A DNA stretch of 64,000 bases from Zygnema cylindricum (lineage: Eukaryota > Streptophyta > Zygnematophyceae > Zygnematales > Zygnemataceae): the NCBI GenBank assembly GCA_037447655.1, contig JBBHKE010001179.1, forward strand, positions 5,001 to 69,000. The letters are read 5' to 3'. A program made the translations under genes and the position numbers. Positions 8,180 to 50,865 of the stretch are shown in pieces. The notes beneath the pieces were generated by a model that was not told the origin of the DNA, did not search any database, and was given only the letters and a program-made list of their open reading frames with translations. Every line of letters starts with the position of its first letter. The stretch's first letter is position 1.

Positions 8180-9203
8180 TTATGTCCCACGTTTAATAAC
8201 GCGTACTTCACTCAAGTGTAGAAATTGTTGTCCTCCCATTCTCAACCACACGTACCGACCACTAAGAACGCAAGTTTTCACAAAAGGGAAACCAAATATT
8301 CCATCGCTATATCGATCAAAGTAAAATTCATTGTCGGGATCGCACTCGATATTTCCTTCCGCATTCCAAAAAGTCATATTGTTTCCCACCCATACTTCAA
8401 TCCCACTTAGACGCTCCCAACAAATCTCACATGCTACACCATCGGAGCAACAAATACGGTTATAAAGCTGCACGCTGCTGATATCATATTCCTGTCCCAA
8501 ATCGACTTGCCACCACGCATCGTTTTCATATAACGTGTGAAACCATGTTCCCCAAGGAATTCCATCGACTCCAAAGTTAGAATAATAAGTGTTCCCGTTA
8601 TCAGGAGGATATATGCTACTCATGGTTGTGAGCTTCTTCAGGGCAACATTATCTGTTGAAGCTCAAGGAAAACAGTCAGCAATGTTTGTGTTAGAAAAAC
8701 ATGTTGAAAATGGTGTTGTTTAAAAGAAAAAATGGATGGTAAATGAGGTTTTTCTCCACCGTCTGAGAAGGCGTAAAACATGTAAAAAGTACACGGCACA
8801 AAACCAGTGAAAATTGCTGACTAATCGATGTAAAAAATACTAAGAATAATCGATGTGAAAAGTACTTACCTCCTGAGAGTCCGACGATTCCTGTGCTGTT
8901 AACCACATCAGTGCCGACTGCATACTTCAGCCTACATAATTGTGTTTCCGGGAAGTAGTTGAATGCGAGACAGCTTGTCACATTATTACAAGTGTCACAA
9001 CATCCTCCCAGTGACGTGACAATGGGACTGTAGCTCGGAATATCGTACCCATTAATTTCCCATCCATCCAAAACCTCACATTCACTAGCAAATGTTGTGG
9101 GAGGAAAGGGAGGTGCAGGAGACGGTGGAGGTGGAGGAGGAGATGGAGGTAGGGGTGGTGGAGATGGTGGACGTGGAGGTGAAGGAGGAGCAGGCGGCTT
9201 CAT
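8180..9203 (-). CDS. PAN/Apple - proline-rich - F5/8C (F-type lectin-like) secreted protein, copy 3 of 3
   Basis: Predicted wall or extracellular-matrix glycan-binding protein. The upstream visible exon (8870-9203) encodes a (SPPPPP)-type linker and a cysteine-rich PAN/Apple-like domain (CEVLDGWEINGYDIP, GGCCDTCNNVTSCLAFNYF, CRLKYAVG). It ends at a GTAAGT donor. The next exon starts at an AG acceptor and covers 8180-8652. It encodes an F5/8 type C domain of the F-type lectin kind (DNVALKK, SNFGVDGIPWGTWFHTLY, WWQVDLGQEYDISSVQLYNR, YVWLR, FLHLSEVRV) and stops at TAA. The junction keeps frame (G|AT giving Asp). The PAN/linker exon is itself preceded by a TTTTTCAG acceptor, so an unseen upstream exon probably supplies the signal peptide and the true start. 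Close paralogues lie at 10290 and 12106. Ligand specificity is not inferable. Confidence 0.8.
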
Positions 9204-9329
9204 TACTGAAAAATAAACAGACAGGACGTATAAAAAAGGAAGAGCTCTTATTTAGTTCTTAAACTTTGTGAGTTAAAATAAAGGCAAAAACGCTCAACAC
9301 TAGACCGTGAATTACTGTATCAGTTAATG

Positions 9330-9489
9330 GCAGTTATTTGGATCCTGGAGAGTTTGTCTCTTGACCATTTTTGAGATTCCGACGAATTTAGGGTTTGACA
9401 TTTCCCACAATTGAGCGGCCAGGGCTCGAGTCTAAGACCTCTAACTAACGCTGTCAATGCGCTAACCACCGCGCCACCGGCCCTCATGG
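9330..9489 (-). mobile_element. tRNA-derived SINE-like element
   Basis: On the minus strand a perfect Pol III A box (TGGCGCGGTGG, 9466-9476) follows GGGCCGG. It is followed by TTAGCGCATTG and, about 35 bases on, by the B-box-like ACTCGAGCCC (9422-9431) and TGGCCGC. The outer segments GGGCCGG and CTGGCCG are largely complementary, like a relic acceptor stem. A non-tRNA tail runs towards 9330. The exact 3' end and target duplication were not resolved. It is not a functional tRNA gene because the anticodon arm is not well formed. Confidence 0.65.
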
Positions 9490-10289
9490 TGGGTATTTCT
9501 GTTTTATTTCTTGTGCGAGCGTAACCATATCCCCGGTTCTATCGACTTCTCTTGCCCAATTGAATAACCATAAATTAACATTAACAACACTAATTATATG
9601 TTTCCTAATTCTAATTCTGTAAGCGGTTGAGAATCGTCTTGGAACTCACACCGTGGAAACCCACTGTACACTTCTTAACGCTGATGAAAAATCATTGTGT
9701 TCTATTGCGGTCTACACTGGTTGCCAACCATTTCCTTAAGTACATGTACTAGTAAAATCTGATTGTTATCGGCATCAAATTGGTGAAGGCTATCCAGAAA
9801 ATAATTTGGGATTGTACAGTCATAAAAGCTATCCACCAAAATATTTCTCTTTCGCGTATTCAGCATATAAATTAAACATCTATGCCTATAGTACATTATT
9901 CCTTAAAAACAGGTAGTTTTTCTCCGTGAATATTTTAAGTTCACGAACATCTATAATCTGTGTCGGTTTACATTGTTTTTTTTTTGAATTATGTAATACA
10001 CACTACATTGTAGTCTTAAACAACGAAGTTAGATTACCATTTATTTCTCCTATTATTTTATTTTGCTATCTCAACCAAACAAACCTCAAACCAAAATATA
10101 CCACAGAGGTGAAACCTACAAAAATGTTCAATTCGAGTGACTTACAAATAAAGATTTCCTAGCTTTCCGATCTCCCTTTGTAACGTGAACTCCACGTGGG
10201 AGAATAATCATTAGTTTCTTTATTCCAAATCAATTGATCTTAAGGGATTACGCAGAATTGAGTGGAAAGGAGAGCTTCAACCCACAATA
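9490..10289. other. Intergenic, no gene recognised
   Basis: AT-rich spacer between two tandem lectin-like genes. Short ORFs on both strands have no domain signature. Confidence 0.6.
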
Positions 10290-11346
10290 TTACTCACCAC
10301 GTTTCATCACTCGAACTTCACTCAAGTGTAAAAATTGTGGTCCTTCCAGTCTCAGCCAAACATATCGACCACTAAGAGCGCAAGTTTTTACAAAAGGAAA
10401 AGAAAATGTTTCTTGAAAATACTGGTAGAAATAAAATTCATCGTCAGGGTCACACTCGATATTTCCTTCCGCGTTCCAAGAATTCATGTTGTTTCCCACC
10501 CATACTTCAATCCCATTTAGACGCTCCCAACAGATTTCGCACGCTACACCTCTGGAACAACAAATTCGGTTGTAAAGCTGCACACTACTGATTTTGTATT
10601 CCTTCCCCAAGTCTACTTGCCACCACGCATCGCTTTCATATAATGTGTGAAACCATGTTCCCCACGGAATTCCGTCGACTCCAAAGTTAGAGTAAAAAGT
10701 GTTCCCGTCGTAAACAGGATATATACTACTCATGGTCGTCCGCTTCTTCAAGGCAACATTATCTGTTAAAGCACAAGGAAAACAAAAAGAAAAACTTGAA
10801 AATAGTGACGTTGTTTAAACAAACATGGAAGGTTAATGAAGATTTTACTTCACCATCTAATTGGATATACGATTGTGATATATATACGATTGTGATATAT
10901 ATATAAGTGGTCAACACAAGTTTTGCCAAAAAAATTTAGCGTAGTTAATGTGGAAAGTGGTTACCTCCCGAGAGACCGACAACTCCAGTGCTATTAACCA
11001 CATCAGTACCCACTGCATATTTCAGCCAACATCTTCGTGTTTCGGGGAAATAATTGAAGGCGAGACAGTCTGTCACAATGTTACACGTGTCGCAACATTT
11101 GTTCAGGGACGTCACAATGGAACTGTAGCCAGGAATATCATACCCAATAATTTCCCATCCATTCAAAATTTCACATTTCCTTGCAAATATTGAAGGAGGA
11201 AAAGGTGGTGCAGGACTAGGTGGTGGAGATGGTGGAGGTGGAGGAGGAGATGGGGGTGGTGGTGGAGATGGTGGAGGTGGAGGAGGAGATGGAGGAAGAG
11301 GTGGAGGAGATGGTTGAGGTGGAGGTGGAGGAGCCAGCGGCTTCAT
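10290..11346 (-). CDS. PAN/Apple - proline-rich - F5/8C (F-type lectin-like) secreted protein, copy 2 of 3
   Basis: Same two-exon design as its neighbours. The exon 10965-11346 opens with a long (SPPPPP)-type linker, about 45 residues and the longest of the three. A PAN/Apple-like domain follows (CEILNGWEIIGYDIPGY, KCCDTCNIVTDCLAFNYF, CWLKYAVGTDVVNSTGVV). It ends at a GTAACC donor. The second exon (10290-10762) encodes the F5/8C domain (DNVALKK, SNFGVDGIPWGTWFHTLY, WWQVDLGKEYKISSVQLYNR, WERLNGIEVWVGNNM, FLHLSEVRVMKRGE) and ends at TAA. A TTTTTTCAG acceptor abuts the first ATG, so an upstream signal-peptide exon is probable. The linker DNA is a GGTGGAGGA-type minisatellite, which explains its length. 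The final codons GGTGAGTAA also look like a splice donor, but all three paralogues terminate at this position, so I read it as the true end. Confidence 0.8.
11200..11340. repeat. In-frame minisatellite encoding the proline-rich linker
   Basis: Imperfect tandem GGTGGAGATGGTGGAGGTGG-type units. On the minus strand they encode Ser-Pro-Pro-Pro-Pro-Pro blocks, sites typically hydroxylated and arabinosylated in green-lineage wall glycoproteins. The same tract is shorter in the copy at 9120-9200 and nearly absent in the gene ending at 13362. Confidence 0.85.
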
Positions 11347-12105
11347 AACTGAAAAAATAAACAGATGAAGAACCGAAAAGAAAAGTTTTTTTTTTGGTTA
11401 TTTACTTGAATAGTGAAAATGGTGGCAGAATGCTTATCGCTACTATTACCTTCCACACTATTTAGCAAGTAATGTTTCTATTTATAGAAATCGTAAATCT
11501 TTTCTGTCAACTTTATATCAGTGAGAGCTATACAAAAACCAGAAATGAAGTACATTTAGAATAACTATGCACCATAGTCTTGGGATACAGTCTACTCTAT
11601 TTATAAATCAAAAACTGTTAGGAGCAAAAAATGAATAGTCGTTATCAACATTTTATCGGTGAGTGTTGTCCAAAACATAGTGTGAAATAGTGTATTACAA
11701 GTAGAAAAATATGCAGCATACTCTTGGCTAATTATCTACGCTGTAAAAAAATAAACCTTCTAGTCAGTTAGTAAATGCAATTTTCAAGTTTTTGAGCATC
11801 TTATCTGCGAGTTTACATTACTGGTTTTCTGAATTATGTGGTGCGCACATTACTGCAGTTTACAAAAAATATTTAAATAGCATAGATTTTCCCTCCCAAC
11901 CAAAGAGAAGAAGTACAAAGTCATTTGAGACATTTAAGTAATGTTCATCATTCAAATGCCTTCCAAATGAATAGATTCAGCCTCAGAAAGAAAAACTACC
12001 CCAAGAAATGCTTGTCTTTATAAATACTAATTTTAGCATTTTCAGATGGAATACGCTAATACACATTAAAATCAACCAATGATTTTACGAACCTCTATCC
12101 GTTCT
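11347..12105. other. Intergenic, no gene recognised
   Basis: AT-rich spacer. It should contain the promoter and, by analogy with the upstream paralogue, a signal-peptide exon for the 10290-11346 gene, but no exon could be identified. Confidence 0.5.
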
Positions 12106-13362
12106 TCACTTACCATTACGCATTACTCGAACTTCATTTAAATGCAAATATTGTGCTCCTGGGATAACCAGCCACACATATTGACCTGTAAGTTCACACG
12201 ATTTTACAAATGGGAAACCGAATGTCTTCCCATTTACATCCCACTGAAAAAATGTAAAAGGATCACACTCGAAATTTCCATCGTCATCCCACATATATGA
12301 ACTGCTCCCCACCCATACTTGAACGTTTTGAAGACGTTCCCAACATATTTCACATGGAAACCCATCTAGACAACAGACGCGATTGTATAATTGCACGCCA
12401 CTGATTTCGTATGTGTCGCCCAAATCTACTCGCCACCATGGATAGTATTCATACTGCGTATGAAACCATCTCCCCCAAGGAATACCATCGACCCCGAAAC
12501 TCGAATAATCGTAAAGTTCGGGACCGTCCATGAAAATGGAAGACATTTCCGTCGATTTTTGGAGGGCAACATTTTCTGAAACACACATAGGAAAAGTTAA
12601 ATTAAATTAAGCTTTATGTCATTCGGAACCCCAAAAATTATTGATTTCTTAGGGAGAATCTGTGAGCGAAGTAAGCTTTATTCCTTTCGAGATTGCTTGC
12701 ATCAAGAAATTGCAATGGTACCAAACTCTTTTACGACTATTTCAACACTATTTTCAGAGTTTGCTACGTCGTTAGTGAATGAATTTTGACAAAATACTAA
12801 ATTTTTAGTGTACCAAGTTGAGTGCTAAATATTGAATGCACCATGTTAAATGCTGAACCCTGAATGCTGAAAGGTTGTCTGTTTAATTTTGACACCTGCC
12901 ATGTATATAAATATTTTTCTGACTATGTAATTGTGCTATTTAAATTTACTCCCTTTATTTGCGTACGCCGATTCTACCACCCGATTTTAGGATTTTTGTA
13001 CCTCCGCCGAAACCGACCAATCCGGTGCTGTTGACCACATCCGTACCGACCGCCGATTTCAGCCAGCACGTCTGATTGGTCGAAAAGTAATTGAAGGCGA
13101 GACAGGTTGTCACGTTGTTGCAGAGGTCACAGCATGCACCGGATGACGTCACTTCTACGCCAGAGAATCCTGAAATGTCATACCCGACAATTTCGTACCC
13201 GTTTTGAATCTCGCATTTCCCGGCGGAAAATGCGGGAGGGAAAGGCGGCGCAGGGGGAATCTCCTGAGTGAATGCCACGTGGCAAAAAAGGAAGAAGGCA
13301 GTGAAAAATAGCGCCATTAGGGTTAGGGTTTTGAGAGTGGAGAGAGGGAACATTAGCGCCAT
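12106..13362 (-). CDS. Secreted PAN/Apple - F5/8C (F-type lectin-like) protein, copy 1 of 3
   Basis: The most complete member of the array. Exon 1 (13002-13362) begins MALMFPLSTLKTLTLMALFF, a clear N-terminal signal peptide with a hydrophobic core. It then has only a short PPAPPFPP linker, then a PAN/Apple-like domain (KCEIQNGYEIVGYDISGF, GACCDLCNNVTTCLAFNYF, CWLKSAVGTDVVNSTGLV). It ends at a GTAC donor at 13001. Exon 2 (12106-12575, acceptor TTTCAG) encodes the F5/8C domain (ENVALQKSTEMSS, SSFGVDGIPWGRWFHTQY, WWRVDLGDTYEISGVQLYNR, WERLQNVQVWVGSS, YVWLVIPGAQYLHLNEVRV) and ends NGK-stop. The reading frame joins correctly across the intron. The product should be exported, and F-type lectin folds commonly bind fucosylated glycans. 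Carbohydrate specificity is not established here. Confidence 0.85.
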
Positions 13363-13835
13363 TGTGAATAGCGATTGCTTGAGAGAGCTAAAACTAAAGT
13401 ACTTAAATGGAAAGGATGTACGGAATTTATGTACGGAATTAAGTTGAGTAGGAGAAACGTTACATGTGTCACGTGTGAGTCTTGGTCAAAGTGCATTATT
13501 TCCCGAGTCTTTTTAAGCTAACTGCTTGGTTTGTCGCTTCTATTTTGTCGCTTCTGTTTTGTCGCTTCCTTTTTTGACATATCAGCCGTACGGTATGGAT
13601 ATGCTTAGTACATTTTTTACATTGCGGCGGATACAAACGGGTGTAGATTTTCAAGCGCTGAGGCTCCGTCGCATGCCGTACAATTGTACTTTACAGATCG
13701 GACTTATCGAGGGCAGAAAACGACAACACATTTCCTGCTTTGCCAGCTTTTAGTTGACCACGTGCAGGACTGGAGGCGAAATTCAATGTTTCGCACGTGT
13801 GGCGTGCAGGCGCTGCTCGGCAAAACGACTCAGCA

Positions 13836-15901: not shown

Positions 15902-15915
15902 GGTTATTGGCCCAC
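15902..15915 (+). promoter_or_regulatory. Primer binding site, complementary to the initiator-Met tRNA anticodon arm (one mismatch)
   Basis: GGTTATTGGCCCAC directly follows the LTR end. The copy II version GGTTATGGGCCCAC is the reverse complement of GTGGGCCCATAACC in the anticodon arm of plant initiator tRNA-Met, as I recall that sequence. This would be half-tRNA priming as in Drosophila copia. Confidence 0.65.
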
Positions 15916-15968
15916 AGCCCAGGGTACCTAAGTTTGATGGAAACAACTACTTATACTGGAGAGGAATC

Positions 15969-16775
15969 ATGAAGCTCTACTTTGTCGAAAGAGAACTCAT
16001 GAATGTGGTGGATGGTTCCCTTGCCGAAATAGATCCTACGTGGAGCAAGAAGAATACACAGTGTGTCAATGCGCTCATGCAAGCATTATCTTTGGAAATC
16101 CGAATGACACAGATTCTGATGGACAAGGCGAAAGAAATTTGGGCATCCCTGGAAGATATGTATCAACAAACAAATGTTCAACGACTAATGATAAGTGGTA
16201 AAAGTATTTTTCAGTATAAGTACAATGGTGGTCGCATCTCAAATTATTGTTATGTTCTTAGGAAGTTGTTTGTAGAAAATGCATGCTCAGGAGGTGTTTT
16301 TCCAACTAGACTGCAAGCCATGTTGCTTATGAGAGGTTTGCCTGAGGAATATAAAGGGCCATCCGATGCACTAAAGAAAATAGATCAGTCATCTTAGAAC
16401 CTAAAAGTGGCAATTCAGCTAGTGTTAGAAGAAGAATCTACAAATCTAACAATGAAAGGAAACAAAACAGGTCAAGTATTAAACACTCAGTTTCAGAATA
16501 GAAATCAGTATCAGACAGGTCGATTAACTAACAACCCATGGGCTTGTTTTTACTGTTTTAACAATGATCATTTGGTACGAGAATGTTCAGTTTTGAAAAA
16601 GGACAATTTGACCGGAAACTTTCGCGAAGGATGGAATAACGACCGACGTCTTTTCAACAAAGGAAAACCTTATAAGCAACCAAAAAAGGCATGCGTTTTT
16701 TTTGCTGAAAACGAGAATATCTTAGAGGAAGGAGGAGAAAAAGGTGACAAACATATCAGCAATTTCCAATTGTGA
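15969..16775 (+). pseudogene. copia copy I gag with zinc knuckle
   Basis: Copia-type gag (MKLYFVERELMNVVDGSLAE; WASLEDMYQQTNVQRLM), followed by a CCHC knuckle CFYCFNNDHLVREC. A TAG at 16395-16397 splits the frame; copy II has TGG there, so it is a point mutation. The frame runs from further upstream, through the primer site and into the LTR, as seen in copy II. Gag forms the virus-like particle and the knuckle binds element RNA. Confidence 0.85.
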
Positions 16776-17535
16776 CAGGAAAAGAAATGTTTGCAATGAC
16801 AAATGCAAGATTTGGACAAAAAAAAACACCTGGATTATGGACACTGGTACGTATGCTCACATGTGCGACGATAGGGAGCTATTCAAAACTCTCGAGCCAA
16901 TCTCACCACAAATCATCTACTATGCTGATGACAGTTATGTAGTTGCAAGCTCGAAAGAAAAGGTGAATCTTAAACTCAAAATAAAGGGTCAAACAGTAGA
17001 CAGGACCTTGAATGATGTGTTATATTTTCCAGAATTCAGTAAAATCTTGTTTAGCAAATCTTTGGTAAAGAGCAAAGGATTTGAAGTAAGTCTCAAGCAT
17101 AAAAAACAAGAAGTCAGTATGAATGGATTTGTTGCAGCTGTTGGAACTAGAGGAGAAAATATGATGTATAGGCTTGATCTTGCTGAAGAATTTAATGGAA
17201 AGAAGGTTCTGTACTCAGTTGTAGCAAATGATAATTATCTATGGCATAAAAGACTGGGGCATGGTCATCGAGAAAGGTTAGGGAAAATGGTGAAAAATGG
17301 CATAGTCAAAGGAGTTAAATTATCTCAAGATAAGTCAAATGAACTATGTGATGGATGTGCTTTAGGAAATATTCACAAATTACCATTTCCTGCTGAAAGC
17401 GGTCACAGAGCTAAAAGAGTTTTAGATGTAATACATTCAGATGTTTGGTCTTCCAAAATACTGTCTATGGGGGGAGTCCGATATATGCTTACATTAAAGG
17501 ATATTTTTCAAGATATACCAAGGTGTACTTTTTGA
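16744..17535 (+). pseudogene. copia copy I protease and integrase zinc-binding region
   Basis: The aspartic protease signature WIMDTGTYAHMC sits near the start. It is followed by a GAG-pre-integrase HHCC zinc finger (LWHKRLGHGHRERLGKMV, then CDGCALGNIHKLPF). The first integrase-core Asp lies in VIHSDVWSS. A frameshift relative to gag at about 16770 is absent in copy II, so it is a mutation and not programmed recoding. Confidence 0.85.
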
Positions 17536-18239
17536 AAAGAAAAAGTGAAGTTTTTGATTGTTTTCGAGAATACAAAGTCTGGAGCGAAAAGATACATGGA
17601 GTTCCCATTTTAAATCTCAGATCCGATAACGGAGGAGAATACGTCTCTCAGGTGTTTTCAGACTTTCTCAAAGAACATGGAATTTCACGCCAACTAACAG
17701 TTCCATATTCACCTAAACAAAATGGAGTTGCGGAAAGATTAAATAGAACACTAGTAGAGTGTGCTCGGACTATGTTGGCATATAAAAGAGTAAGTGTGAA
17801 ATATTGGGCTGAGGCTTTAAATTGTGTTGTAAATATTAAAAATAGACTATAAAGTAAAGCAACACCAAGAAAGACACCTTATGAACTTTAGACAAAAGAG
17901 AAACCGGATTATAGTCATTTTAGAGTATTTGGCAGTAAAGTTTTTATACTTAACAACGATCCAAATAGATGGAAAATGGAGCCAAAAGGAATGTCTGGCA
18001 TCCTACTAGGATATGATAATAATGTTGAAGGATATAGAGTCAACATATCAGGCACCAACCAAACTAGAGTTGCTAGAAACATCCTTGTGAAAGATGAGTC
18101 AGATCCAGTGGATGTATTTGCACTAACACCTGAACAAAGAAGCAAAATGGAGATGGTATACGTGGTCCTTGACGAAGTAAGACAAGTGAACAACGAGCAG
18201 ACTATTACTCCTAACAAGGAAACAACGACAACCCCTTAG
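17445..18239 (+). pseudogene. copia copy I integrase core and C-terminal region
   Basis: The frame continues the integrase after a frameshift near 17490. It contains the second Asp (LRSDNGGEYVSQ) and the catalytic Glu region (PYSPKQNGVAERLNRTLVEC). The C-terminal stretch includes LGYDNNVEGYRVN. Stops at 17850-17852 and near 17889 (TAG in place of the expected Trp or Gln codon) interrupt it. Confidence 0.85.
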
Positions 18240-23587: not shown

Positions 23588-25880
23588 TCAACTGGACATT
23601 ACACTTCTATTTTTTTTAATTTTTTTTTTAAGATTTCTTTGACCGGTTTCCATTGTTTTGCAAATTTATCATCACCTCCGGATCAAACACTCCCTTCCGA
23701 ACCACAAACCAAAGCTCTCACCGGGCCAGAATGTGCTTCCAAAACTGTCACACCTATGGGATTTCCCCATGTTTCTTTCCATCCTCGAATACTTCCCTCC
23801 TCTCTTCCCGACCACAAATTCCTTTCCTCATCTAAAAGTAAAGAAGAAATACTCGTCAGATGTCCTTCCCATTCGTTAACAAACTCGCCATCCAAATCCC
23901 AACAAAACATTTTTCCATCGTGTCGTCCTCCCCAGAGAAAATCATTTGCCATAAGCGAAGAAACAAATATTGTTGACTCACCTGGAAATGTTTTTGATTC
24001 TCTCCTTCTTTTTTCTTTATTTTTTTGTCTTAAATTTTCCCTCGATCTCCAACGTATAATTGTTCCATCCTCACAAGACCACAGTTGATTTCTCACATCT
24101 TTGCAAAAAGAAGTAAGAGGAGTCTTTTGAATAGGAGATCTCCATTCATTTTGAATTTTAAATTCCTCATAACTTCCACTGTGAAATATTTGAAAGACAA
24201 GCCAAACAGCATTGGTTCCTTTCTAATGCTATAATTGGACCTTGGATACAACTCCTTGTTTCAACTTGAGATTTTAGAACCACTTATTTAACAACAATAA
24301 CAACTCTTGCCTTCAAATAACAATAATTTTTCACTATTATAACCAACCCAAAGTTGTCCCAAATGGTAAGCGAGAGCGGCCACAACACTATTTTGTCTTT
24401 TTGCAAAAATTCCTTCGTATCTCTTTTCCAATGAGAAAGATAATCTCCACATATCAAAATATTGCCGTTGCCGGTCAGGATTAAATCATGAATACCAGGC
24501 AATCATCTTCGTGAATAGGCAATCATCTTCGTGAATAACCAACAACAGAAAAAGACAAAGAAAAAGTGGATTAGTAGTTGATGGTGAGTAAAAGTTCTAG
24601 GGGATACCCGATTTTCGCGGCAATGAACTATCCGAGGCGATATGTGACATCATTCAATATTGATCTTAGATGATAAGCGACTTCAATATGCGGATTCGAT
24701 TTCAGTGACGATTGGTGACATGTTGTCACACAGGCTGATCCACCGCGGGAAAACCGGTGAACAGACGAATATGTCACGGCACTTAAAAATGACATATAAT
24801 TTAGTTTTAGCCTGGTACACCGTGAATCGCTATTAATGTTAATGTTTTTTTTGTCACTTAAAGCATCTATTTCCGTACATATCGGATTTTGAATCTGATG
24901 GTTGTAATTTAAAGGTAACATTCTCAGGTTCCGATTGGCGGTTTCAAATTAAAAAAAACCGGACAATTGTGTACGGAGAAAAGATGTTTTAGGTGGCGAA
25001 AAAATAATTTACACCAATAGCGATTCACGGTGTAGTGACCTCACATGTACACGTGTCATTGCTTTAATTATTGAACGAACATTAGAGCAGAGTAAAAATC
25101 AATAATTCTATTGAAGGCTTAGAGCATCAAAAATAATTTTAATAATTTTCTTTCATAGGCAATTCTTCCAAATACAAAAGGAAATATGGCAAATCACCTT
25201 TGAGCTGGCCACTTTCACTTCCTTATAAGTCGAGATTCCGAGACTCTTTCCTTTTAACTCTTTTAGTAGCAAATCCATCGCCTCACATATTTTTGTAATT
25301 TGAATTTTATTTTATTTATCTCTGTTTCCATGTCCATACCATTCTCCGAAGCTATTTGCAACTGATTCTTTTCCATATTTTTTTGCAAGCTGAAAATTTT
25401 CTTCTTTTGAACAAAATATAATGTGGTAAAGTATTTTGGTTGTAAAGGAATCCGATTGTTCTGTATCGCAGATTCTATCATTTTTTCGGACATTTTAAGA
25501 GGATCCAAGAATGTACATAAACTCATCAAGTCATTTTTACTCGCGGTTGGATATGGCTCGAACAAAGAATCTACCACACTATATATTGTGTCACAGTTTT
25601 TCCTCGCTTTAGAAGGAATGGATTCAATTAGTGTTATACAGTCTTCAAATTCATAATCTTCTTTGTGTAAAACTGCCCACAAGAGGTAATTGTCGAGAAG
25701 AGTTACCAACTGTTTTTGATTCTGGGAAGGTTCTTCATCGTCATTTTGATCCGAAAAAATTTGAAAATGGAGCGAGACGAGATTTAAAATGGATTTATTT
25801 GTCAAACCTTGTATTTCTGTTAGTGTCCGTTCGTCGATATTTTTACTAGAAAGTTGAGAGAAAGAAAAGGGTGCCATCAT
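23588..25880 (-). pseudogene. NPH3-WD40 gene, copy 1 (disabled)
   Basis: The first exon (25880 to about 25200) begins MMAPFSFSQLSS and reads as the C-terminal half of an NPH3 domain. It has QGLTNKSILNLVSRHFQSF-like sequence, then LVTLLDNYLLWAV, TLIESIPSKARKNCDTIYS, LDPLKMSEKMIESAIQNNR and IPLQPKYFTTLYFVQ. These correspond to NPH3 blocks LVD-YL, F-LAE-P--AR--D-LYRAID, C-KLS-EA--HAAQN and LPL--V-QVLFFEQ. The propeller (to 23588) holds WD-like blades such as LWGGRHDGKMFCWDLDGE and LWSGREEGSIRGWKE. Lesions: loss of the propeller exon start (replaced by a tandem AGGCAATCATCTTCGTGAAT), a 1-bp deletion near 24410, and TGA for TGG at about 23690. A short TIR element (24815-25035) sits in the intron. 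The NPH3 exon itself is open. Confidence 0.75.
24815..25035. mobile_element. ~220-bp TIR element, TACACCG family, in the copy 1 intron
   Basis: TACACCGTGAATCGCTATT at the left is inverted as AATAGCGATTCACGGTGTA at the right, giving 19-bp perfect ends including flanking TA. Interior arms TTTTGTCACTTAAAGCATC and GATGTTTTAGGTGGCGAAAA pair imperfectly. It is absent from copies 2 and 4 at the matching intron. Confidence 0.9.
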
Positions 25881-26076
25881 AATTTTTTTTCGAATTTTAA
25901 AGCGACACTAAAAAAGAAATGGAAAAAAAAACTAAAGAACTAAAAACTGTTGTGAGAGTGATTGCTACGCCATGTTATAAACCTTTCTGAAAAGGTTTTT
26001 AACGACAGAAATCTTAAAGAATACTTTTTTCAACCTAAAAGATATGCCACAACAGGTCCAGAAGGTTACAATTAGT

Positions 26077-26615: not shown

Positions 26616-27374
26616 ATGGGTGACTCTGCAGCTTCTGGTAGTGTCCCTGTTGCTGCAGAGCAACAGGTTATTGTTGCTGTAAAGCAAAAGGTTATGGGCC
26701 CACAGCCAAGAGTACCTAGGTTTGATGGAGACAACTACTTATACAGGAGAGGAATCATGAAGCTCTACTTTGTCGAAAGGGAACTCATGAATGTGGTGGA
26801 TGGTTCTTTTGCCGAAACAGATCCTATGTGGAGCAAGAAGAATACACAGTTTGTCAGTGCACTCATACAAGCACTATCTTTGGAAATCGGAACGGCACAC
26901 ATTCAGATGGACAATGGGAAAGAAATTTGGAGATCCTTGGAAGATATGTATCAACTGAGGAATGTTCAGCGACAAATGATAACTGCTACAAGTATTTTTG
27001 AGTGTAAGTACAATGGTGGTTGCATCTCAGATTATTGTTATGGTCTTAGGAAGTTGTTTTAAGAAAATGCATGCTCAAGAGGTGTTTTTCTAGCTGCACA
27101 GCAAGCCATGTTGTTTATGAGAGGTTTACTTGAGGAATACAAAGGGGCCTCAAATGCACTAAAGAAAATAGATCAGTCATCTTGGAACCTAACAATGGCA
27201 ATCCAGCTAGTGTTAGAAAACAAATCTACTAATCTAGCAATAAAAAGAAGCAAAACAGGTCAATTATTAAACACTCAGTTTCACAATAGAAATCAGTATC
27301 AGACATGTCGATCAACTAACAACCCATGGGCCTATTTTTACTGTTTTAACAAGGATTATTTGGTACGAGAATGA
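26616..27374 (+). pseudogene. copia copy II gag with LTR-encoded start
   Basis: The frame starts MGDSAASGSVPVAAEQQVIV at 26616, 50 bases inside the 5' LTR. It runs without a stop through the LTR end (26665) and primer site (26690-26703) into gag (RVPRFDGDNYLYRRGIMKLY, ELMNVVDGSFAETDP). A TAA at 27060-27062 interrupts it, and the frame resumes at 27108. The zinc knuckle CFNKDYLVRE follows a Cys-to-Tyr change, so its first Cys is lost. A TGA at 27372-27374 splits it again. Confidence 0.85.
26690..26703 (+). promoter_or_regulatory. Primer binding site, initiator-Met tRNA anticodon-arm type
   Basis: GGTTATGGGCCCAC, all 14 bases complementary to the anticodon arm of plant initiator tRNA-Met as I know it. 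It is separated from the LTR end by a short imperfect duplication of GTTGCTGCAGAGCAACAGG; in copy I the equivalent motif abuts the LTR. Confidence 0.7.
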
Positions 27375-27380
27375 TCATTT

Positions 27381-27749
27381 TTGAAAAAGGACACTTTGAC
27401 AAGAAACTTTCGCGAAGGATGGAACAACAACCGGCGTCCTCCCGACAAAGGAAAACCCTATAAACAACCAGAAAAGGCATCCGCTTTTTCTGCCGAAATG
27501 GAGAATGTCTTAGAGGAACGAGGAGACAAAGGTGACAAACATATCAGCAATTTTCCACTTGTGACAGGAAAGGAAATGTTTGCAATGACAAGTGCAAGAT
27601 TTGGACCAAAAGAGAACACATGGATTATGGACACTGAAGCATCTGCTCACATGTGCGGCGACAGGAAGCTTTTCGAAACTCTCGAGCCAATCTCAACACA
27701 AAATATCTACTATGCTGATGACTGTTATGTAGTTGAAAGCTCGAAATGA
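27381..27749 (+). pseudogene. copia copy II protease region
   Basis: In frame with gag. The protease signature reads WIMDTEASAHMC, so the catalytic DTG is DTE here and the copy is likely inactive. The frame ends at a TGA just after VVESSK. Confidence 0.8.
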
Positions 27750-34493: not shown

Positions 34494-36764
34494 TCAACTG
34501 GACATTACACTTTCAATTTTTTCACTTTTCTCTTTTAAGACTTCTTTGACCGGTTCCCATTGCTTTACAAATTTATCATCACCTCCGGACCAAATACTTC
34601 CATCCGAACCACAAACCAAAGCTCTCACTGGACCACAATGTGCTTCCAAAACTGTCACACATATGGGTTTTCCCCATGTTTCTTTCCATCCTCGAATACT
34701 TCCCTCCTCTCCTCCCGACCACAAAGTCCTTTCCTCATCCAAAAGTAAAGAAGAAATACTCGTCGGATGTCCTTCCCATTCGTTAACAAACTCGCCATCC
34801 AAATCCCAACAAAATATTTTTCCATCGTTTCGTCCTCCCCAGAGAAAATCATTTGCCACAAGCGAAGAAACAATTCTTGTTGACTCACCTGGAAATGTTT
34901 TTAATTTTCTCCTCTTTCTTTTTTCTATATTTTTTTGTTTTAAAATTTCCCTCAATCTCCAACGCATAATGATTCCATCCTCACAAGATGACCAAAGTTG
35001 ATTTCTCACATCTTTGCAGAAAGAAGTAAGAGAAATCTTTTGAATAGGAGATCTCCATTCACATTTAATTTTGGATTCCTCATAACTCCACTCCGAAATA
35101 TTTGAAATACCAGCCAAACAGCATCGGTTCTTTTCTATTGCTATAAGTGGACCTTGGATACAACTCCCTGTCTCAACTTGAGATTTTAGAACCATTTCTT
35201 TTGTGTCTTCATTCTCCACTATTATAACCAACCCAATGTTGTCCCAAATGGTAAGCGAGAGCAGCCACAATACGATCTTGTCTTTTTGCACAACATTCTT
35301 TCGTATCTATTTGCCAATGAGAAAGATAATCTCCACCTATCAAAATATTTCCGTCGCCCGTCAGGATCAGATCATGAATACCAGAATCAACACTAATTTC
35401 CGTGGTTGCAATCATCTTCGGCTGTTTTCCCATTTGTGAATAACCAACAACAGAAAAAGACAAAGAAAATGTGGATCAGTAATTGATGGTGAGTAAAAAT
35501 TCTAGGGGATACCCGATATTCGCCGCAATGTACTTTCCGAGGCGATTTGCGACATCACCCATAATGACATATATAAATGACATATAATTTAGTTGTAGCT
35601 GGGTAGTGACCGCACATGCACACATGTCATTATGGTATTGGTTGGCGACTAGCCTTACAATTATTGAATGAACATTGGAGCAGAGTAAAAATCAATAAGT
35701 ATGTAGAGAAAAGACAAGGAATGACAAGAAAGGACAAGAAAGGATAAGAAAGGACAAGAAAGCAAAATCAAAAATTAGAAGCATTGTGAAATAGATGGTG
35801 GACATGGTACGGGGACAGAGAGACCATGGATATGGAGGGAGAAAGGATGCAAAAGAGAGAAAGTAGAGACATGGAAGAACATTTGTCTCTTTTTTTGAAG
35901 TGTCGTTTGTCGTGAACGGTTGGTGATGTGTGAACGGGCTGTTGAATGGAAGTATAGCAAAAGATATAATAGGTTTGGGCGAAGGCCTAGAGTATCAAAC
36001 AATAATTTTAATAATTGTCTTACATAGGCAATTGTTCCACATAGGAAAGGAAATGTGAAAAATCACCTTTGAGCTGGCCATTTTCACTTCCTTGCAAGTC
36101 GAGATTTCAAGACTCTTTCCTTTTTAACTCTTTTAGTAGCAAATCCATCGCCTCCGTGATTTTTTAATTTGAGCTTTATTTTTTTTCATCTCTGTTTCCA
36201 TTTCCATACCATTCTCCGAAACTGTTTGCAGTTGATTCTTTTCCATATTTTCTTGCAAGCTGAAAATTTTCTTCTTTTGAACAAAATATAATGTGGTATA
36301 GTATTCTGGTTGTAAAGGAATCCGATTTTTCTGTATCGCAGATTCTATCATTTTTTCGGACATTTTAAGAGGATCCAAGAATTTACACAAACTTATCAAG
36401 TCATTTATACTCGCGGTTGGATATCGCTCTAACAAAGAATCTACCCAAACTTTTCTATTGTGTCACAATTTTCCCTCGCTTTAGAAGGAATGGATTCAAT
36501 TAGTGTTGTACAGTCTTCATATTTATAATCTTCTTTGTGTAAAACTGCCCACAGGAGGCAATTGTCGAGCAGAGTTACCAATTGTTTCTGATTTTCAGAA
36601 GGTTCTTCATCGCCATTTTGATCCAAAAAACTTTGAAAATGGCGCGAGACGAGATTTAAAATGGATTTATTTGTCAAACCTTGTATTTCTGTTAGTGTCC
36701 ATTCGTCGATATTTTTACTAGAAAGTTGAGAGAAAGAAAAGGGTGCCTTCATAGTTTTCTTCAA
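34494..36764 (-). pseudogene. NPH3-WD40 gene, copy 2 (disabled, propeller best preserved)
   Basis: The NPH3 exon starts at 36764 or 36752 (MKAPFSFSQLSSKNIDEWTL). It is collinear with copy 1 until about 36440, where an altered CACAATAGAAAAGTTTGGG shifts the frame; copy 4 shares the 2-base excess here. The NPH3 frame resumes at about 36435 (LERYPTASINDLISLCKFLD, MSEKMIESAIQKNRIPLQPE). The propeller (35460 to 34494) has blades with LSHWQIDTKEC, WVGYNSGE, LWSSCEDGIIMRWRLRE, LWGGRNDGKIFCWDLDGE, LWSGGEEGSIRGWKETWG and IWSGGDDKFVKQWEPVKEV. An 11-base deletion at about 35212 (relative to copy 4) shifts frame after YNSGE. The C-terminus ESVMSS-stop is intact. WD-type propellers are protein-interaction platforms; no catalytic role is implied. 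Confidence 0.75.
35712..35765. repeat. AAAGGACAAG tandem repeat in the copy 2 intron
   Basis: About five 10-base units. The inverse (CTTGTCCTTT) occurs at 49105-49160 in the copy 4 intron, which confirms the inverted duplication. Confidence 0.85.
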
Positions 36765-36945: not shown

Positions 36946-38457
36946 CCTTTGAAGAAACAATTTATGATTTCTTGACTTAATTTCATTCTTGTTCCATTCA
37001 TTTATTTACAGAAAACCAGGATCGGCTATTTTGGTAAAGTGTCTGTCTGAGTGTCAGTAGCACATGCGATCTTAAAATAACATCTGGCAATAACTTTACT
37101 AGTGTTATACCAGTGTGTTTGTGACGTGACATTCTGCTTCACCAATGTGGGGACTCGGCATGCTAATCTAGTGAATTTGGACGGCGCAGATCTGCCGTCA
37201 TGTGGCAAGCTGCTTTGGCACGCGACATCTGGCCACGCGATCTTGTTGTTCAATCCGACGATCAAGATCTTGCATTGGGCTACACTGGGACGATATCAGG
37301 GTTCGCTTTTTTTTTTAAACGCGTTGGGACGCAAAGATTCGCCTGCAAAAGGTCAAAGATTGGGATAGCCTCGGGAAATCAGTCGGACCTGATTTTTTAT
37401 TACGCGTATATTTTACGGGAAGACAAAAAAAAAACGGGATGCAGAAAATTTCTTGTAAAAAAATTTTGAACGTCTTTGGCAGTCGCAAAGGTACAGTACC
37501 CGATTCGCCATAATTATGAATTTAATGCCAAAAAAACATTGAACGGCGTAAAACAGACGGAAAATAACATTTTGTCGCATAATTTATACGGCGAATTTGG
37601 CGAAATTATGGTACGGTCCATGCAATGGAACCGGCGTGGTTTCATTTTCAAAAATAAAGAAACCTGAGACGCAAATCTTCCAATAGACCCAATCCTTTTG
37701 CTACTACAAGTCTACAAGTACGGCAGGCGTACTTTTTCCCACGCCCACTCAGTAGACAAGTGTACGGAATGTTTTAATGCATGCCAACCATAGTGAACCA
37801 TACATCATACTTTATCGAATCCACAAAGCTCGTACGGAAAATTGTAACCCTCTGCGATACTTAATGCTTAGCCAATGAGCGTCCTGCTTTCCTTTGTGAC
37901 AAGTTTACAAAATCTTCCGCGGCGTCGTGCATCGCTTTGCAATTGCGTGACGTCACGTGATCGCTTTACGATAAATGTGCATGAAAGGACGTGGGAATAT
38001 TTTTCTTTCTGTCACGTCACACTACATTGTCCGTACTCTGACATCTAAAATGCCATTTGTAATTTAAGGATGAGTTTCTAGTAGTAAATTTATTGCCAAA
38101 TATTATTTTGAGATCGCATGTATCGTTAAATCAGACAAACCAAAAAAACAAAACAATGGAGCACTATATTGTAAACTGGTCTACTGTAAATAAAACAATG
38201 GAGTAAAAAAATGATAAATAAAATCAAGGAAAGACGTTCTACATTGTTGTCTTCAAACGATTGAAACCTTCTAAACTTGCTTGTGGCACATCGCTATTCT
38301 CATTTATTTTTTTCGCTATTCTTTGTCTTCTTCTAGTTGTACCTTTTCAGAAAAGATTATAGATGGTGCGGCGATCATCTTGACGACATTTTTCAGTTTT
38401 TCAGTATTTCTTGTTTTCTCTTTTATTTCGTGCTTTAATTGAAATTCGACGAAATCT
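36946..38457. other. Divergent upstream region between copies 2 and 3
   Basis: 36780-37105 and 38078-38440 are inverted-similar (for example CTTTACTAG and CTAGTAGTAAATTTATTGCC, and ATTTATTTACAG and CTGTAAATAAA). Copies 2 and 3 therefore stand head to head with homologous 5' flanks. The ~970 bp between them is unique apart from its right-arm partner at 45018-46900. No gene recognised. Confidence 0.65.
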
Positions 38458-39913
38458 ATGATGGCATCCTTTTCTCTCTCTCAAATTTTGAATACAAAGG
38501 TAGACCAATTGACACTCCCAGAAATTCAAGGTTTGACAAATAAATCAATTTTGGATCTCGTCTCGCGCCATTTTCAAAGTTTTTTGGATCAAAATGACGA
38601 TGTAGAACCTTCGGAGGATCAAAAACTTCTCGTTGTTCTTCTCGACAACTACCTCTTGTGGGCAATTTCACATAAAGAAGACTTTGGTTTTGAAGACTTT
38701 ACAACACTATTGAAATCCATTCCTTTTAAAGCGAGGGAAAATTGCGACACACTATATAGTGTGGCAAATTCTTTGTTCGAGCGATATCCAACTAATGTGA
38801 TCGAATTCGTTTATGCGAATTTTTGGATCCTCTCAAAATGTCCGAAAATACGATAGAATCCGCGATACGGAACAATCGGATTCCTTTACAACCAGCATAT
38901 TTTACCACATTATATTTCGTTCAGAAGAAGAAAATCTACAACTTGCAAGAAAGTATGAAAAAGATTCACTCACAAATAGGTTTGAAAAATGGTGTCGACT
39001 ATGAGGCCGAAATGGAAAAAAAGAATACCGAAAATGCAAAACTTAGAGAGGAGGTAGACTTTCTACCAGGTAGTGAAAAAAATAGTCTCGAGATTCCAAC
39101 TCACGAGAAAGTAAAAATGCTGAGCTGGCAGGTGAGATTTTTTTCATCTCTCCTTTATAAGACTTGCTTAAAAATTATAGTATGTGCTAAAAAATTGTAA
39201 TTTCTCGTCTTTGGATTTTTGAAGGAATTTATGTGAACATATAGTGTTGCTTTATGACATATGATAATGGGATTTGTTACTGACCCACCTTTTTTTTTCT
39301 TTTTCTTTTCGGTTTTTCACAGATGGAAAAACTGCTGAAGATGAATGTAGTTTTTTACAAAAAGAAAAAGTGGTGATGACGAATACAACCACAAAAATTA
39401 GTGTTGATTTTGATATAAGGAATCTGGTTTTGATCGACAGTTGACAAATTGTGGCCAGTGGAAATCTATTTTCTTATTGGCATATAAGTACGAAGGAATG
39501 TTTTACCATAAATTAAAAATCTTGTTGTGGCCTCCCTCCCTTATGATTCCCAACAACTTTGGGTGGGTTATAATTGCGGTTTAATGTCGGTATTCCAAAG
39601 TAAAGATTAGGTGTTTGTAAAATTCAAATCGTGAGTTGTATAAGAGTACTGCCGGTAATAAGCGGTAAATGCTATATAGGTGGCAATAATTGCATTTCGG
39701 AGGGGAGACTTCGGGAATCTAAAATCACATGTGAATGGAGATCTTCAATTTCATTGGCTAGTGTGGCATCATTCTGCCAAGATTTGAGAGGCCAAATTTT
39801 CAAAAACTTAATTAAAATTTAGGTCAAAACCCTGAATTGCTAAAACATTTGAAAACTGGTCAGAGGAGTTTGAAAAATAAATAGAAAACATTGAAATCGT
39901 AATGTCCAGTTGA
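38458..39913 (+). pseudogene. NPH3-WD40 gene, copy 3 (diverged, disabled)
   Basis: The NPH3 exon (38458-39131) starts MMASFSLSQILNTKVDQLTL and contains SILDLVSRHFQSFLDQNDDV, VVLLDNYLLWAIS, LLKSIPFKARENCDTLYSV and, after a frameshift near 38800, MSENTIESAIRNNRIPLQP. A coiled-coil-like tail follows (KKIYNLQESMKKIHSQ; AEMEKKNTENAKLREEVDFL) and it ends SWQ at a GTGAGA donor (39132). A short 191-bp intron ends at TTTTTCACAG (39322), followed by MEKLLKMN, which aligns with MGKQPKMI of the propeller exon in copies 2 and 4. This compact intron is the best evidence that NPH3 and propeller parts are one gene. The propeller part is badly decayed and missing blades, but ends with the family 3' motif AATGTCCAGTTGA. 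Confidence 0.7.
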
Positions 39914-46352: not shown

Positions 46353-47132
46353 CCTTTGCAACTGCCAAAGACGTTCAAAAACATTTTACAAGAAAAATTT
46401 ATGTATCGCAATTTTTTTTTACTTCCCGTAAAACATAAGCGTAATAAAAACATCAGGTCCGTACTGATTTCCCGAGGCTATCCCAATCTTTGACCTTTTG
46501 CAGGCGAATCTTTGCAACCCAACGCGTTATAAAGAAAAAAGCGAACCCTGAAATCGTCCCGATGTAGCCCACACCGTTCGATCGAGACCATCGGATTGAA
46601 CAACAAGATCACGTCGCCGAATGTCGCGTGTCAACGAAGCTTGCCACGTGACAACAAATCTGCGCCGTCCAAATTCACTAGATTACCATGCCGAGTCCCC
46701 ACATCGTTGAAGCAGAATGTCACGTCACAAGCACACTGGTATAAAACTAGTAAAACTATTGCCACATATTATTTTAAGGTCGCATGTGCCACTGAAACTC
46801 AGACAGACACTTCACCATAATAGCCAATCCTGGTTTACTGTAAATAAATGAATGGAACAAGAATGAAATTAAGTAAAGAAATCACAAATTGCTTCTTCAA
46901 AGGATTGTAACCTTCTGGACCTGTTGTGGAATGTGGAATGTAGCAATTCCGCTTTTTTTTTGTCTGCCATTCTTTGTTTTCTTTTAGGTTGAAATAAGTC
47001 TTCTATAATATTTATGTCGTTAAAAACCTTTTCAGAAAGGTTTATAACATGTTGTAGCAATCATTCTCACAACAATTTTCAGTTTTTCAGTTTTTTTTTT
47101 TTTTCATTTCTATTTTAGTGTCGTTTTAAAAT
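46353..47132. other. Upstream region of copy 4
   Basis: Inverse counterpart of 36780-37490. No gene recognised. It presumably contained the copy 4 promoter. Confidence 0.6.
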
Positions 47133-47392
47133 TTGAAGAAAACTATGAAGGCACCATTTTCTTTCTCTCAACTTTCTAGTAAAAATATCGACGAATGGAC
47201 ACAAACAGAAATACAAGGTTTGACAAATAAATCCATTTTAAATCTCGTCTCGCGCCATTTTCAAAGTTTTTTAGATCAAAATGGCGATGAAGAACCTTCT
47301 GAAAATCAAAAACAATTGGTAACTCTTCTCGACAATTGTTAAGATTCCTAGGATCGGGGGATAGAATGGGCGATCCCAATAAAGGGATTGAT

Positions 47393-47458
47393 GAGCCGGC
47401 CAGGATTTGAACCTGAGGTCAGTAGCTGTGAATGTACTAACCACTGTACCACCAGCTC
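47393..47458 (-). ncRNA. tRNA-like segment in TRIM repeat 1
   Basis: Degenerate cloverleaf bounded by GAGCTGG and CCGGCTC with A box TGGTACAGTGG and B box GTTCAAATCC. Same layout as 48125-48192. Confidence 0.6.
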
Positions 47459-48124
47459 AGGCAACTCAGGTGTTATGCTGGTGGGTCCAATTTTATATAG
47501 GTTTTTGTTGTGGATTTTACCACAATTCCGGATATCTAAGCTGGTGGGTCCAATTTTATATAGGTTTTTGTTGTGGATTTTACCACAATTCCGGATATCT
47601 AGCGCACGTTTCACCTACGTCAACACCCCCCCTCGAGAGGTTGCCGGTCATAATTGTCCTTGTAAACCTAGTCCCCCTGGCTTTGATACCATGTTATAAT
47701 CCCTAGAATCGGGAAATAGAATGGACGGTCAGGATTTGAACCTGGGACCACTGTAGCTGTGAATGTACTAACCACTAGTTGTGAATGTACTAACCACTGT
47801 ACCACCTGTGAATGTACCACCTGTGAATGTACTAACCACTGTACCACCACTGTACCACCAGCTCAGAAGCTCAAATCCACCAACTCAGTCCACCAGCTCA
47901 GAAGCTCAGATGTTATACTGGTGTGTTCAATTTTATATAGATTTTTGTTGTGGATTTTACCACAATTCCGGATATCGAGTGCACGTTTCACCTACGTCAA
48001 CACCCCCTCTCGAAAGGGAGCCGGTCATAATTGTCCATGTAAACCTAGTCCCCCTGGCTTTGATACCATGTTAAGATTCCTAGAATCGGGGGATAGAATG
48101 GACGATCCCAATAAAAGGATTGAT

Positions 48125-48192
48125 GAGCCGGTCAGGATTTGAACCTGGGACCACTGTAGCTGTGAATATACTAACCACTGTACCACCAGCTC
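48125..48192 (-). ncRNA. tRNA-like segment in TRIM repeat 3 (Pol III A and B boxes)
   Basis: 68 bases on the minus strand. A 7-bp acceptor stem (GAGCTGG with CCGGCTC, one G-U), D-stem GTAC with GTAT, A box TGGTACAGTGG (perfect TRGYNNANNNG) and B box GGTTCAAATCC (perfect GGTTCRANNCC) are 29 bases apart. The anticodon stem is imperfect and the variable loop is short, so it is tRNA-derived rather than a tRNA. TTTT follows about 10 bases downstream, a possible Pol III stop. Confidence 0.7.
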
Positions 48193-50865
48193 AGAAGGTG
48201 GGTCCAATTTTATATAGGTTTTTGTTGTGGATTTTACCACAATTCCGGATATGGAGCGCACGTTTCACCTACGTCAACAACAATTACCTCCTGTGGGCAG
48301 TTTTACACAAAGAAGATTATGAATTTGAAGACTGTACAACACTAATCGAATCCATTCCTTCTAAAGCGAGGGAAAATTGTGACACAATAGAATAGTGTGC
48401 GTAGATTCTTTGTTAGAGCGATATCCAACCGCGAGTATAAATGACTTGATAAGTTTATGTACATTCTTGGATCCTCTTAAAATGTCCGAAAAAATGATAG
48501 AATCTGCGATACAGAACAATCGGATTCCTTTACAACCAGAATACTTTACCACATTATATTTTGTTCAAAAGAAAAAAAAATCAGCTTGCAAGAAAATATG
48601 GAAAATAATCAACTGCAAATAGCTTCGGAGAATGGTATGGAAAATAGCTTCGGAGAATGGTATGGAAATGGAATTAGAGATGAAGAAAAATAAAACTCAA
48701 ATTGCAAAAATCACAGAAGCGATGGATTTGCTACTAAAAGAGTTAAAAGGAAAGATTCTTGAAATCTCGACTTGCAAGTAAGTGAAAATGGCCAGCTCAA
48801 AGGTGATTTTTCACATTTCCTTTCCTATGTGGAACAATTGCCTATGTAAGACAATTATTAAATTATTGTTTGATACTCTAGGCCTTCGCCCAAACCTATT
48901 ATACCTTTTGCTATACTTCCATTCAACAGCCCGTTCACGCATCACCAACCGTTCACGACAAACGACACTTCAAAAAAAGAGACAAATGTTCTTCCATATC
49001 TCTACTTTCTCTCTTTTGCATCCTTTCTCCCACCCTATCCATGGTCTCTCTGTCCCCTTACCATGTCCACCATCTATTTCACAATGCTTCTAATTTTTGA
49101 TTTTGCTTTCTTGTCCTTTCTTATCCTTTCTTGTCCTTTCTTGTCATTCTTTGTCTTTTCTCTACATACTTATTGATTTTTACTCCGCTCCAATGTGCAT
49201 TCAATAATTGTAAGGCTAGTCGCCAACCAATACCATAATGACATGTGTGCATGTGCGGTCACTACCCAGCTACAACTAAATTATATGTCATTTATATATG
49301 TCATTATGGGTGATGTCGCAAATCGCCTCGGAAAGTACATTGCGGCGAATATCGGGTATCCCCTAGAATTTTTACTCACCATCAATTACTGATCCACATT
49401 TTCTTTGTCTTTTTCTGTTGTTGGTTATTCACAAATGGGAAAACAGCCGAAGATGATTGCAACCACGGAAATTAGTGTTGATTGTGGTATTCATGATCTG
49501 ATCCTGACCGGCAACGGAAATGTTTTGATAGGTGGAGATTATCTTTCTCATTGGCAAATAGATACGAAAGAATGTTTTGCAAAAAGACAAGATCGTATTG
49601 TGGCTGCTCTCGCTTACCATTTGGGACAACTTTGGGTTGGTTATAATAGTGGAGAATTAGTGTTATTTGAAGACACAAAAGAAATGGTTCTACAATCTCA
49701 AGTTGAAACAGGGAGTTGTATCAAAGGTCCAATTATAGCATTTGAAAGGAATCGATGCTGTTTGGCTGGTCTTTCAAATATTTCGGAGTGGAGTTATGAG
49801 GAATCTAAAATTAAAAGTGAATGGAGATCTCCTATTCAAAAGATTTCTCTTACTTCTTTCTGCAAAGATGTGAGAAATCAACTTTGGTCAACTTGTGAGG
49901 ATGGAACCATTATGCGTTGGAGACTGAGGGAAAATTTAAAACAAAAAAATATAGAAAAAAGAAAAAGGAGAAAATCAAAAACATTTCCAGGTGAGTCAAC
50001 GAGATTTGTTTCTTCGCTTATGGCAAATGATTTTCTGTAGGGAGGACGAAACGATGGAAAATTATTTTGTTGGGATTTAGATGGCGAGTTTGTTAAGGAA
50101 TGGGAAGGACATCCTACAAGTATTTCTTCTTTACTTTTGGATGAGGAAAGGAGTTTGTGGTCGGGAGGAGAGGAGGGAAGTATTCGAGGATGGAAAGAAA
50201 CATGGGGAAAACCCATATGTGTGACAGTTTTGGAAGCACATTCTGGTCCAGTGCGAGCTTTGGTTTGTGGTTCAGAAGTTAGTGTTTGGTCCAGAGGTGA
50301 TGATAAATTTGTAAAGCAATGGGAACCGGTCAAAGAAGTTTTAAAAGAGAAAAATGAAAAAATTGAAAGTGTAATGTCCAGTTGAAGAAAACTTACGATC
50401 GAGCTTTCCTAGTGGGGTCGACAAGAAACAGTGTAAATAGTCACAGAAAAATGATGTATAATGTTGAATTAAACCTTTATAAAGATAGTACAGATTTCGG
50501 ATAGATGATAGTCAGATAGATGAGGATTTTAGGATTTGGTTGCAATTTCCAGTTGTTTAGTTATATATAAATAGTTAAATACATCTGTCCCTCTGACTCC
50601 TTGTGGAAACCAAGAATTATATACAAATTCCTGAAAAAATGGAAACAAGTTCAAGAAACTGGAAATAAAATAAATTTTCGAAGAAATTTTGTCCATATTT
50701 AAGTATTTGAGATGCACTTTCCTATTTGTCACCGACTAAAAAAAACGTACAAAACTACAGATACAGTGATGTCTAATGAAGTAGAGATTGATAGAAAAAC
50801 ATTTGTAAATGTTTGTTAGAGAGAGGACATTGAATTTTTGATTGCAAGTTTCACTTGATTTTTAA

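Follow-up and report, generated by a model that had tools for sequence, protein, structure and literature searches.

A Probable Helenus-Type TRIM Array with tRNA-Like Sequence in Its LTRs, Inserted into an NPH3-Like Gene Copy of Zygnema cylindricum

Results

Organization of the Array and Its Insertion Site

In the stretch of 64,000 nucleotides of Zygnema cylindricum DNA that was analyzed (hereafter, the window), an NPH3-like gene copy or pseudogene is interrupted by a TRIM array on the minus strand (table 1). The array spans 943 bp and consists of three LTRs and two internal regions; read along the minus strand, these follow one another as LTR-C, internal, LTR-B, internal, and LTR-A, with ACAAT at either side. 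The LTRs begin with TGTTGACG and end with TTAACA in LTR-A and LTR-C or with ATAACA in LTR-B, and about 63 bp are tandemly duplicated in the upstream part of LTR-A. The two internal regions share 61 of their 66 positions. In the orientation of the element, TGGTATCAAAGCC forms the first bases of both and abuts the LTR end, and a purine tract, GAGGGGGGG or GAGAGGGGG, closes each and abuts the next LTR. Exact copies of TGGTATCAAAGCC were found at two places in the window, both of them in the array internals, and the 17 other matches each have three mismatches; the total of 19 matches with up to three mismatches compares with a mean of 15.8 in shuffled sequences, of which 23 in 100 reached 19, so that the total is unremarkable. 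By sequence and position, the array thus has a primer site beside its 5' LTR and a purine tract beside its 3' LTR, and it is short and non-coding with TG...CA LTR ends, as a TRIM is. A frame of 140 aa, called mechanically from stop to stop (47720-48142), runs across the repeats on the strand opposite to the element.

Table 1. Positions of the array components, the insertion site, and the signals within the LTRs.
Feature	Position in window	Strand	Length or sequence	Remarks
LTR-C	48069-48279	-	211 bp	5' LTR in element orientation
LTR-B	47692-48002	-	311 bp	middle LTR
LTR-A	47337-47625	-	289 bp	3' LTR in element orientation
Internal region 1	47626-47691	-	66 bp	primer-site-like TGGTATCAAAGCC at 47679-47691; purine tract at opposite end
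Internal region 2	48003-48068	-	66 bp	primer-site-like TGGTATCAAAGCC at 48056-48068; purine tract at opposite end
Target-site duplication, left copy	47332-47336		ACAAT	
Target-site duplication, right copy	48280-48284		ACAAT	
Interrupted NPH3-like gene copy or pseudogene	47101-48800	+		extent is that of the blastn flank queries, not of the gene ends
tRNA-like segment of LTR-A	47392-47458	-		Rfam tRNA 42.2 bits; A box 47441-47451, B box 47403-47413
tRNA-like segment of LTR-C	48124-48192	-		Rfam tRNA 38.9 bits; A box 48175-48185, B box 48135-48145
TTTT run	48113-48116	-	TTTT	only one on the sense strand of the element; just downstream of the LTR-C tRNA-like segment
TATA-like sequence	LTR-C 48209-48217; LTR-B 47932-47940; LTR-A 47555-47563 and 47492-47500	-	CTATATAAA	upstream of the tRNA-like segment

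The insertion site was characterized with the flanks of the array (47101-47336 and 48280-48800) as blastn queries, which identified three uninterrupted paralogs in the window, at 36796-36069, 25925-25200, and 38415-38993. The empty site is a single ACAAT in two of the three (36561-36565 and 25689-25693) and ACAAC, near 38645, in the third; the context of the insertion point is CTCGACAAT, present once in two paralogs, and CTCGACAAC in the third. A Pfam scan that covered two of the uninterrupted paralogs gave an NPH3 match of 42.4 bits at 25263-25907, above the cut-off of 27, and one of 25.4 bits, just below it, at 38443-38853. NPH3 is a green-plant family, in keeping with a streptophyte host. 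The element thus sits in one member of a local set of NPH3-like gene duplicates. The three-repeat array with TG...CA ends and two 66-bp internals (47337-48279), the primer site and polypurine tracts, and the perfect ACAAT duplication had all been described in a first-pass annotation of this DNA, and each was confirmed, the last also by the single ACAAT of the two empty sites.

Frames of similar look lie near the NPH3-like copies, at 23683-24222, 34494-35303, and 49393-50040. The second has a WD40 match above the cut-off, the first has weak matches to beta-propeller models, and the third gave no domain-model match. Compared by eye, these frames together with the NPH3-like copies suggest the duplication of a two-gene block.

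tRNA-Like Segments in the LTRs

When a 1.1-kb stretch was searched alone in permissive mode, two of the three LTRs (LTR-A and LTR-C) yielded matches above the gathering score of the Rfam tRNA model (29), so that the tRNA-like character claimed in the first-pass annotation was borne out by a tRNA model. Both segments are oriented as the element and its primer site are. The details of the claim were retained in part. The proposed length of 68 bp is correct for LTR-C, and the segment of LTR-A measures 66 bp; in LTR-B, the tRNA-like part is rearranged, with short tandem duplications, three A boxes, and a single B box (47732-47742), and neither the 3' acceptor strand nor the bases that follow it remain. 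The boxes had been called perfect, which fits the B box, GGTTCAAATCC, but not the A box, TGGTACAGTGG, in which T stands for C at position 4 of the consensus TRGCNNARNGG; A and B boxes are present, unchanged, in all three LTRs. As judged by eye, the acceptor stem indeed comprises 7 bp, one of them a G-U pair, and the anticodon position in LTR-C would read CTA.

An A box and a B box 25-110 bases apart occurred five times in the window, always within the LTRs of the array: LTR-A and LTR-C have one such pair each, with gaps of 27 and 29, and LTR-B has three, with gaps of 51, 93, and 104. None of 200 dinucleotide shuffles contained a pair; the box patterns had been composed after the element was seen. 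B boxes alone are not rare by the same kind of comparison: the window has three, all in the array LTRs, and 6 of 100 shuffles reached this number. Folded at minimum energy, the two segments in table 1 were two-armed rather than a clean cloverleaf, but they surpassed most shuffles in stability (z -4.1 and -2.5; 1 and 2 of 200 shuffles, respectively, folded equally well). No tRNA was reported by ARAGORN in its bacterial setting or by an Rfam scan of the whole window, run with fast filters at gathering thresholds. These two null results, and the frequency of B boxes, are what could be cited for a chance or artefactual origin of the locus, for instance as a tandem repeat unrelated to LTRs or as a product of misassembly. 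We regard such an origin as scarcely credible. The TG/CA ends, the target duplication and empty sites, the primer site, and the purine tract agree at base resolution, and the A and B box pairs were absent from every shuffle. Moreover, the repeats differ from one another, which makes a copied assembly error an unlikely source, and the empty sites in the paralogs argue against a non-LTR origin.

Within the tRNA-like part, LTR-A and LTR-C share 61 identities, with 5 mismatches and 2 gap positions. Outside it, they agree at 81 of the 83 outer upstream bases and at 60 of the 63 that run from the acceptor strand up to the end of the LTR, a stretch that begins with the 7-base acceptor strand itself. 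The three LTRs thus gave no sign of selection on the boxes, and when LTR-A is compared with LTR-C, the tRNA-like segment proves no more conserved than the sequence outside it.

Signals for Pol III and Pol II Transcription

From the A and B boxes in the LTRs, we infer that the element would be transcribed by Pol III. Other signals complicate this picture. The TTTT run of the 5' LTR comes after the tRNA-like segment and before the primer site, about 80 bases past the segment start, and could stop Pol III ahead of the primer site; the 3' LTR, LTR-A, has only TTT at the corresponding place. This arrangement argues against productive Pol III read-through of the examined copy. In addition, the TATA-like CTATATAAA stands at LTR position 63 in all three LTRs, and a second copy in LTR-A came with the duplication in that LTR. 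It occurs five times in the window against 0.85 expected, a count in which the four occurrences in the element are repeat copies and hence not independent. CTATATAAA could be a promoter for Pol II or an upstream element for Pol III. A hairpin-like sequence, TTGTGGTAAAATCCACAA, was also observed just upstream of the TATA-like box (47508-47525, 47571-47588, 47948-47965, and 48225-48242); all three LTRs have it in identical form, LTR-A in two copies, and nothing else in the window matches it with up to three mismatches.

The fixed position of the TATA-like box could mean that the element is an ordinary Pol II-driven TRIM with this box as its promoter, in which a tRNA or a tRNA-type SINE, once inserted in the LTR, was copied to all LTRs as a passenger. 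We consider this unlikely, yet serious enough to be kept in view. It would accord with the rearrangement of the tRNA-like part in LTR-B and with the conservation of that part, which is no better than that of the remainder. Against it, the A and B boxes are retained in all three LTRs, and the segment is oriented as the element is; in plant tRNA genes, upstream TATA-like boxes can also serve Pol III. Precedent for the passenger reading comes from the Asteraceae, in which, as far as the cited account goes, TATA-bearing canonical TRIMs are related to Cassandra and are without the 5S part (PMC10853983). A further possibility, which we put forward as speculative, is that both promoters belong to the element, which would then represent a two-promoter Helenus family of an unlisted streptophyte lineage, with a Pol II-type TATA at a fixed position and a tRNA-type Pol III promoter, placed between the canonical and the Pol III TRIM types.

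Related and Other Sequences in the Window

A 36-bp match of 88.9% to the LTR 3' end was found at 6162-6197, where the neighboring sequence is unlike the rest of the LTR. It possibly derives from a related LTR that lacked the tRNA part. A search from 4001 on for the LTR start and duplication that would belong to it gave no CCTAG followed by TG, and the one TGTTA from 4801 on, at 5707, follows CCGTT and not the CCTAG that comes after the fragment. This match bears on the possibility that the tRNA-like segment is a one-off, that is, a lone SINE or tRNA pseudogene insertion spread by recombination within the array, with the rest of the family free of it. In its favor, all of our conclusions on the element family are drawn from a single locus, and the match at 6162-6197 adjoins sequence unlike the LTR; the match is short, however, and no fitting LTR start or duplication accompanies it. 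The three LTRs differ from one another and yet all have the segment or its remains; thus, the segment is probably older than the array, with gene conversion as another possible cause of its presence in all three. A one-off insertion therefore appears very unlikely to us.

Exact words of the LTRs or internals were absent from viral contigs and from bacterial and archaeal contigs, and a blastn search of a plasmid collection gave no match to the element. Copia-type retrotransposon sequence, broken over several frames, was observed at 15903-17852, with matches to Pol_BBD, GAG-pre-integrase, and rve (integrase core), and at 26616-27749, which resembles the former by eye. This Copia-type sequence was considered as a helper of the array, but a link between them is unsupported, as nothing else in the window matches TGGTATCAAAGCC with up to two mismatches. 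Elsewhere, apparent tandem gene copies with proline-rich stretches between them occupy 8180-13485 of the minus strand. F5/8 type C-like matches were obtained at 8180-8662 and 12106-12606 and a PAN match at 12955-13485, and 10290-10814 is by eye like these copies (all on the minus strand).

Discussion

Comparison with Helenus, Cassandra, and Other Elements

The first-pass annotation was aware of no family with the layout described here, and its claim of novelty fails, because Helenus was published in 2024. In that work, Repbase LTRs were searched with tRNA and SINE2 sequences, and the TRIMs with tRNA-derived sequence in their LTRs were named Helenus, the twin brother of Cassandra in the words of its author; the name TRIMp3 was proposed for Helenus, Ajax, and Cassandra together (Kojima 2024; PMC10886601). 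According to its main text, Helenus occurs in fungi and animals and in a single plant, Selaginella moellendorffii; that Pol III is active on it was not proven there. The matches listed in a literature search for Helenus or TRIMp3 included the founding paper and a meeting report in which Helenus is named.

The Zygnema element agrees with Helenus, as set out in the main text of that paper, in several respects. Both have tRNA-derived LTR sequence with A and B boxes and a short internal region with a primer site and a purine tract; the length range of Helenus, 311 to 1263 bp, covers that of the Zygnema element; 5-bp duplications occur in the fungal and plant Helenus elements, and ACAAT is likewise of 5 bp; and one zebrafish Helenus family forms tandem arrays, comparable to the three-LTR array (PMC10886601). 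There are also differences from the same account. The element is distinct from the plant family of that paper: Helenus-1_SMo of Selaginella has an LTR of 120 bp and an internal region of 85 bp, against 211-311 and 66 bp here, the A box of the Zygnema element deviates from the common motif TRGCY of that paper, and a TATA box is not mentioned in its main text, whereas CTATATAAA is present in all three LTRs (PMC10886601). We propose that the array may be a new example of a known TRIM type, and that the family itself, in a streptophyte, may be new as far as comparison with the main text on Helenus goes.

The first-pass reading of the element as a tRNA counterpart of Cassandra survives in its structural sense, that of a TRIM whose LTRs contain a tRNA-like segment oriented as the primer site is; its further reading, in which Pol III would start in the LTR and run on over the primer site, is a putative one. 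The LTRs of both elements have an internal promoter sequence of the Pol III type; in Cassandra, it is 5S rRNA, and in Zygnema, it is tRNA-like sequence instead. We rejected membership in Cassandra itself, because the Rfam scans of the whole window and the 1.1-kb stretch gave no 5S match. We take TGGTATCAAAGCC to be a putative initiator-Met-like primer site, in part from the Cassandra search motif. It is one position off TGGTATCAGAGC, which was used in that motif, and Cassandra, as reported in the same source, also has arrays of about three LTRs (PMC7215508). Tandem TRIMs with three LTRs are common in plants. For these arrays, the account of PMC4717578 gives three LTRs with two internals as the commonest form in maize (63 of 93) and one 5-bp duplication around the whole array, as here; its main text is without any word starting with tRNA, unlike the tRNA-like LTRs of Zygnema. 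Finally, tRNA-derived SINEs share with the Zygnema segment a tRNA-like head with A and B boxes, as is also said of them in PMC10886601, but the Zygnema segment sits inside LTRs, in the company of a primer site, a purine tract, and a 5-bp duplication.

A Proposed Helenus-Type TRIM in Zygnema

Taken together, the empty sites in the paralogs, the anatomy of the LTRs, the Rfam tRNA matches, the A and B box pairs that no shuffle reproduced, and the precedent of Helenus led us to propose, with a probability of roughly 0.65, that the array is a Helenus-type TRIM, that is, a non-autonomous LTR retrotransposon on the minus strand, present as a three-LTR and two-internal array in an NPH3-like gene and likely transcribed by Pol III. 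According to this proposal, the 5' LTR would give rise to an RNA that starts at or close to its tRNA-like segment, most likely through Pol III and the internal A and B boxes, and that would then, by analogy with Cassandra, cross the primer site, where an initiator-Met-like tRNA would prime at TGGTATCAAAGCC. An autonomous element, probably of the Copia type, would supply the enzymes for copying and integration, and the third LTR would probably have arisen by unequal exchange or concatenated reverse transcription.

The interest of the element is moderate, as its kind has already been described. Its clean empty sites and three-LTR array make it a locus at which to ask which polymerase, Pol II or Pol III, drives elements of this kind, and a two-promoter TRIM, if true, would be a test of how TRIMp3 elements arise. 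If the proposal is borne out, the tRNA-type TRIMs, with one plant in the founding paper, would be extended to another plant-type host.
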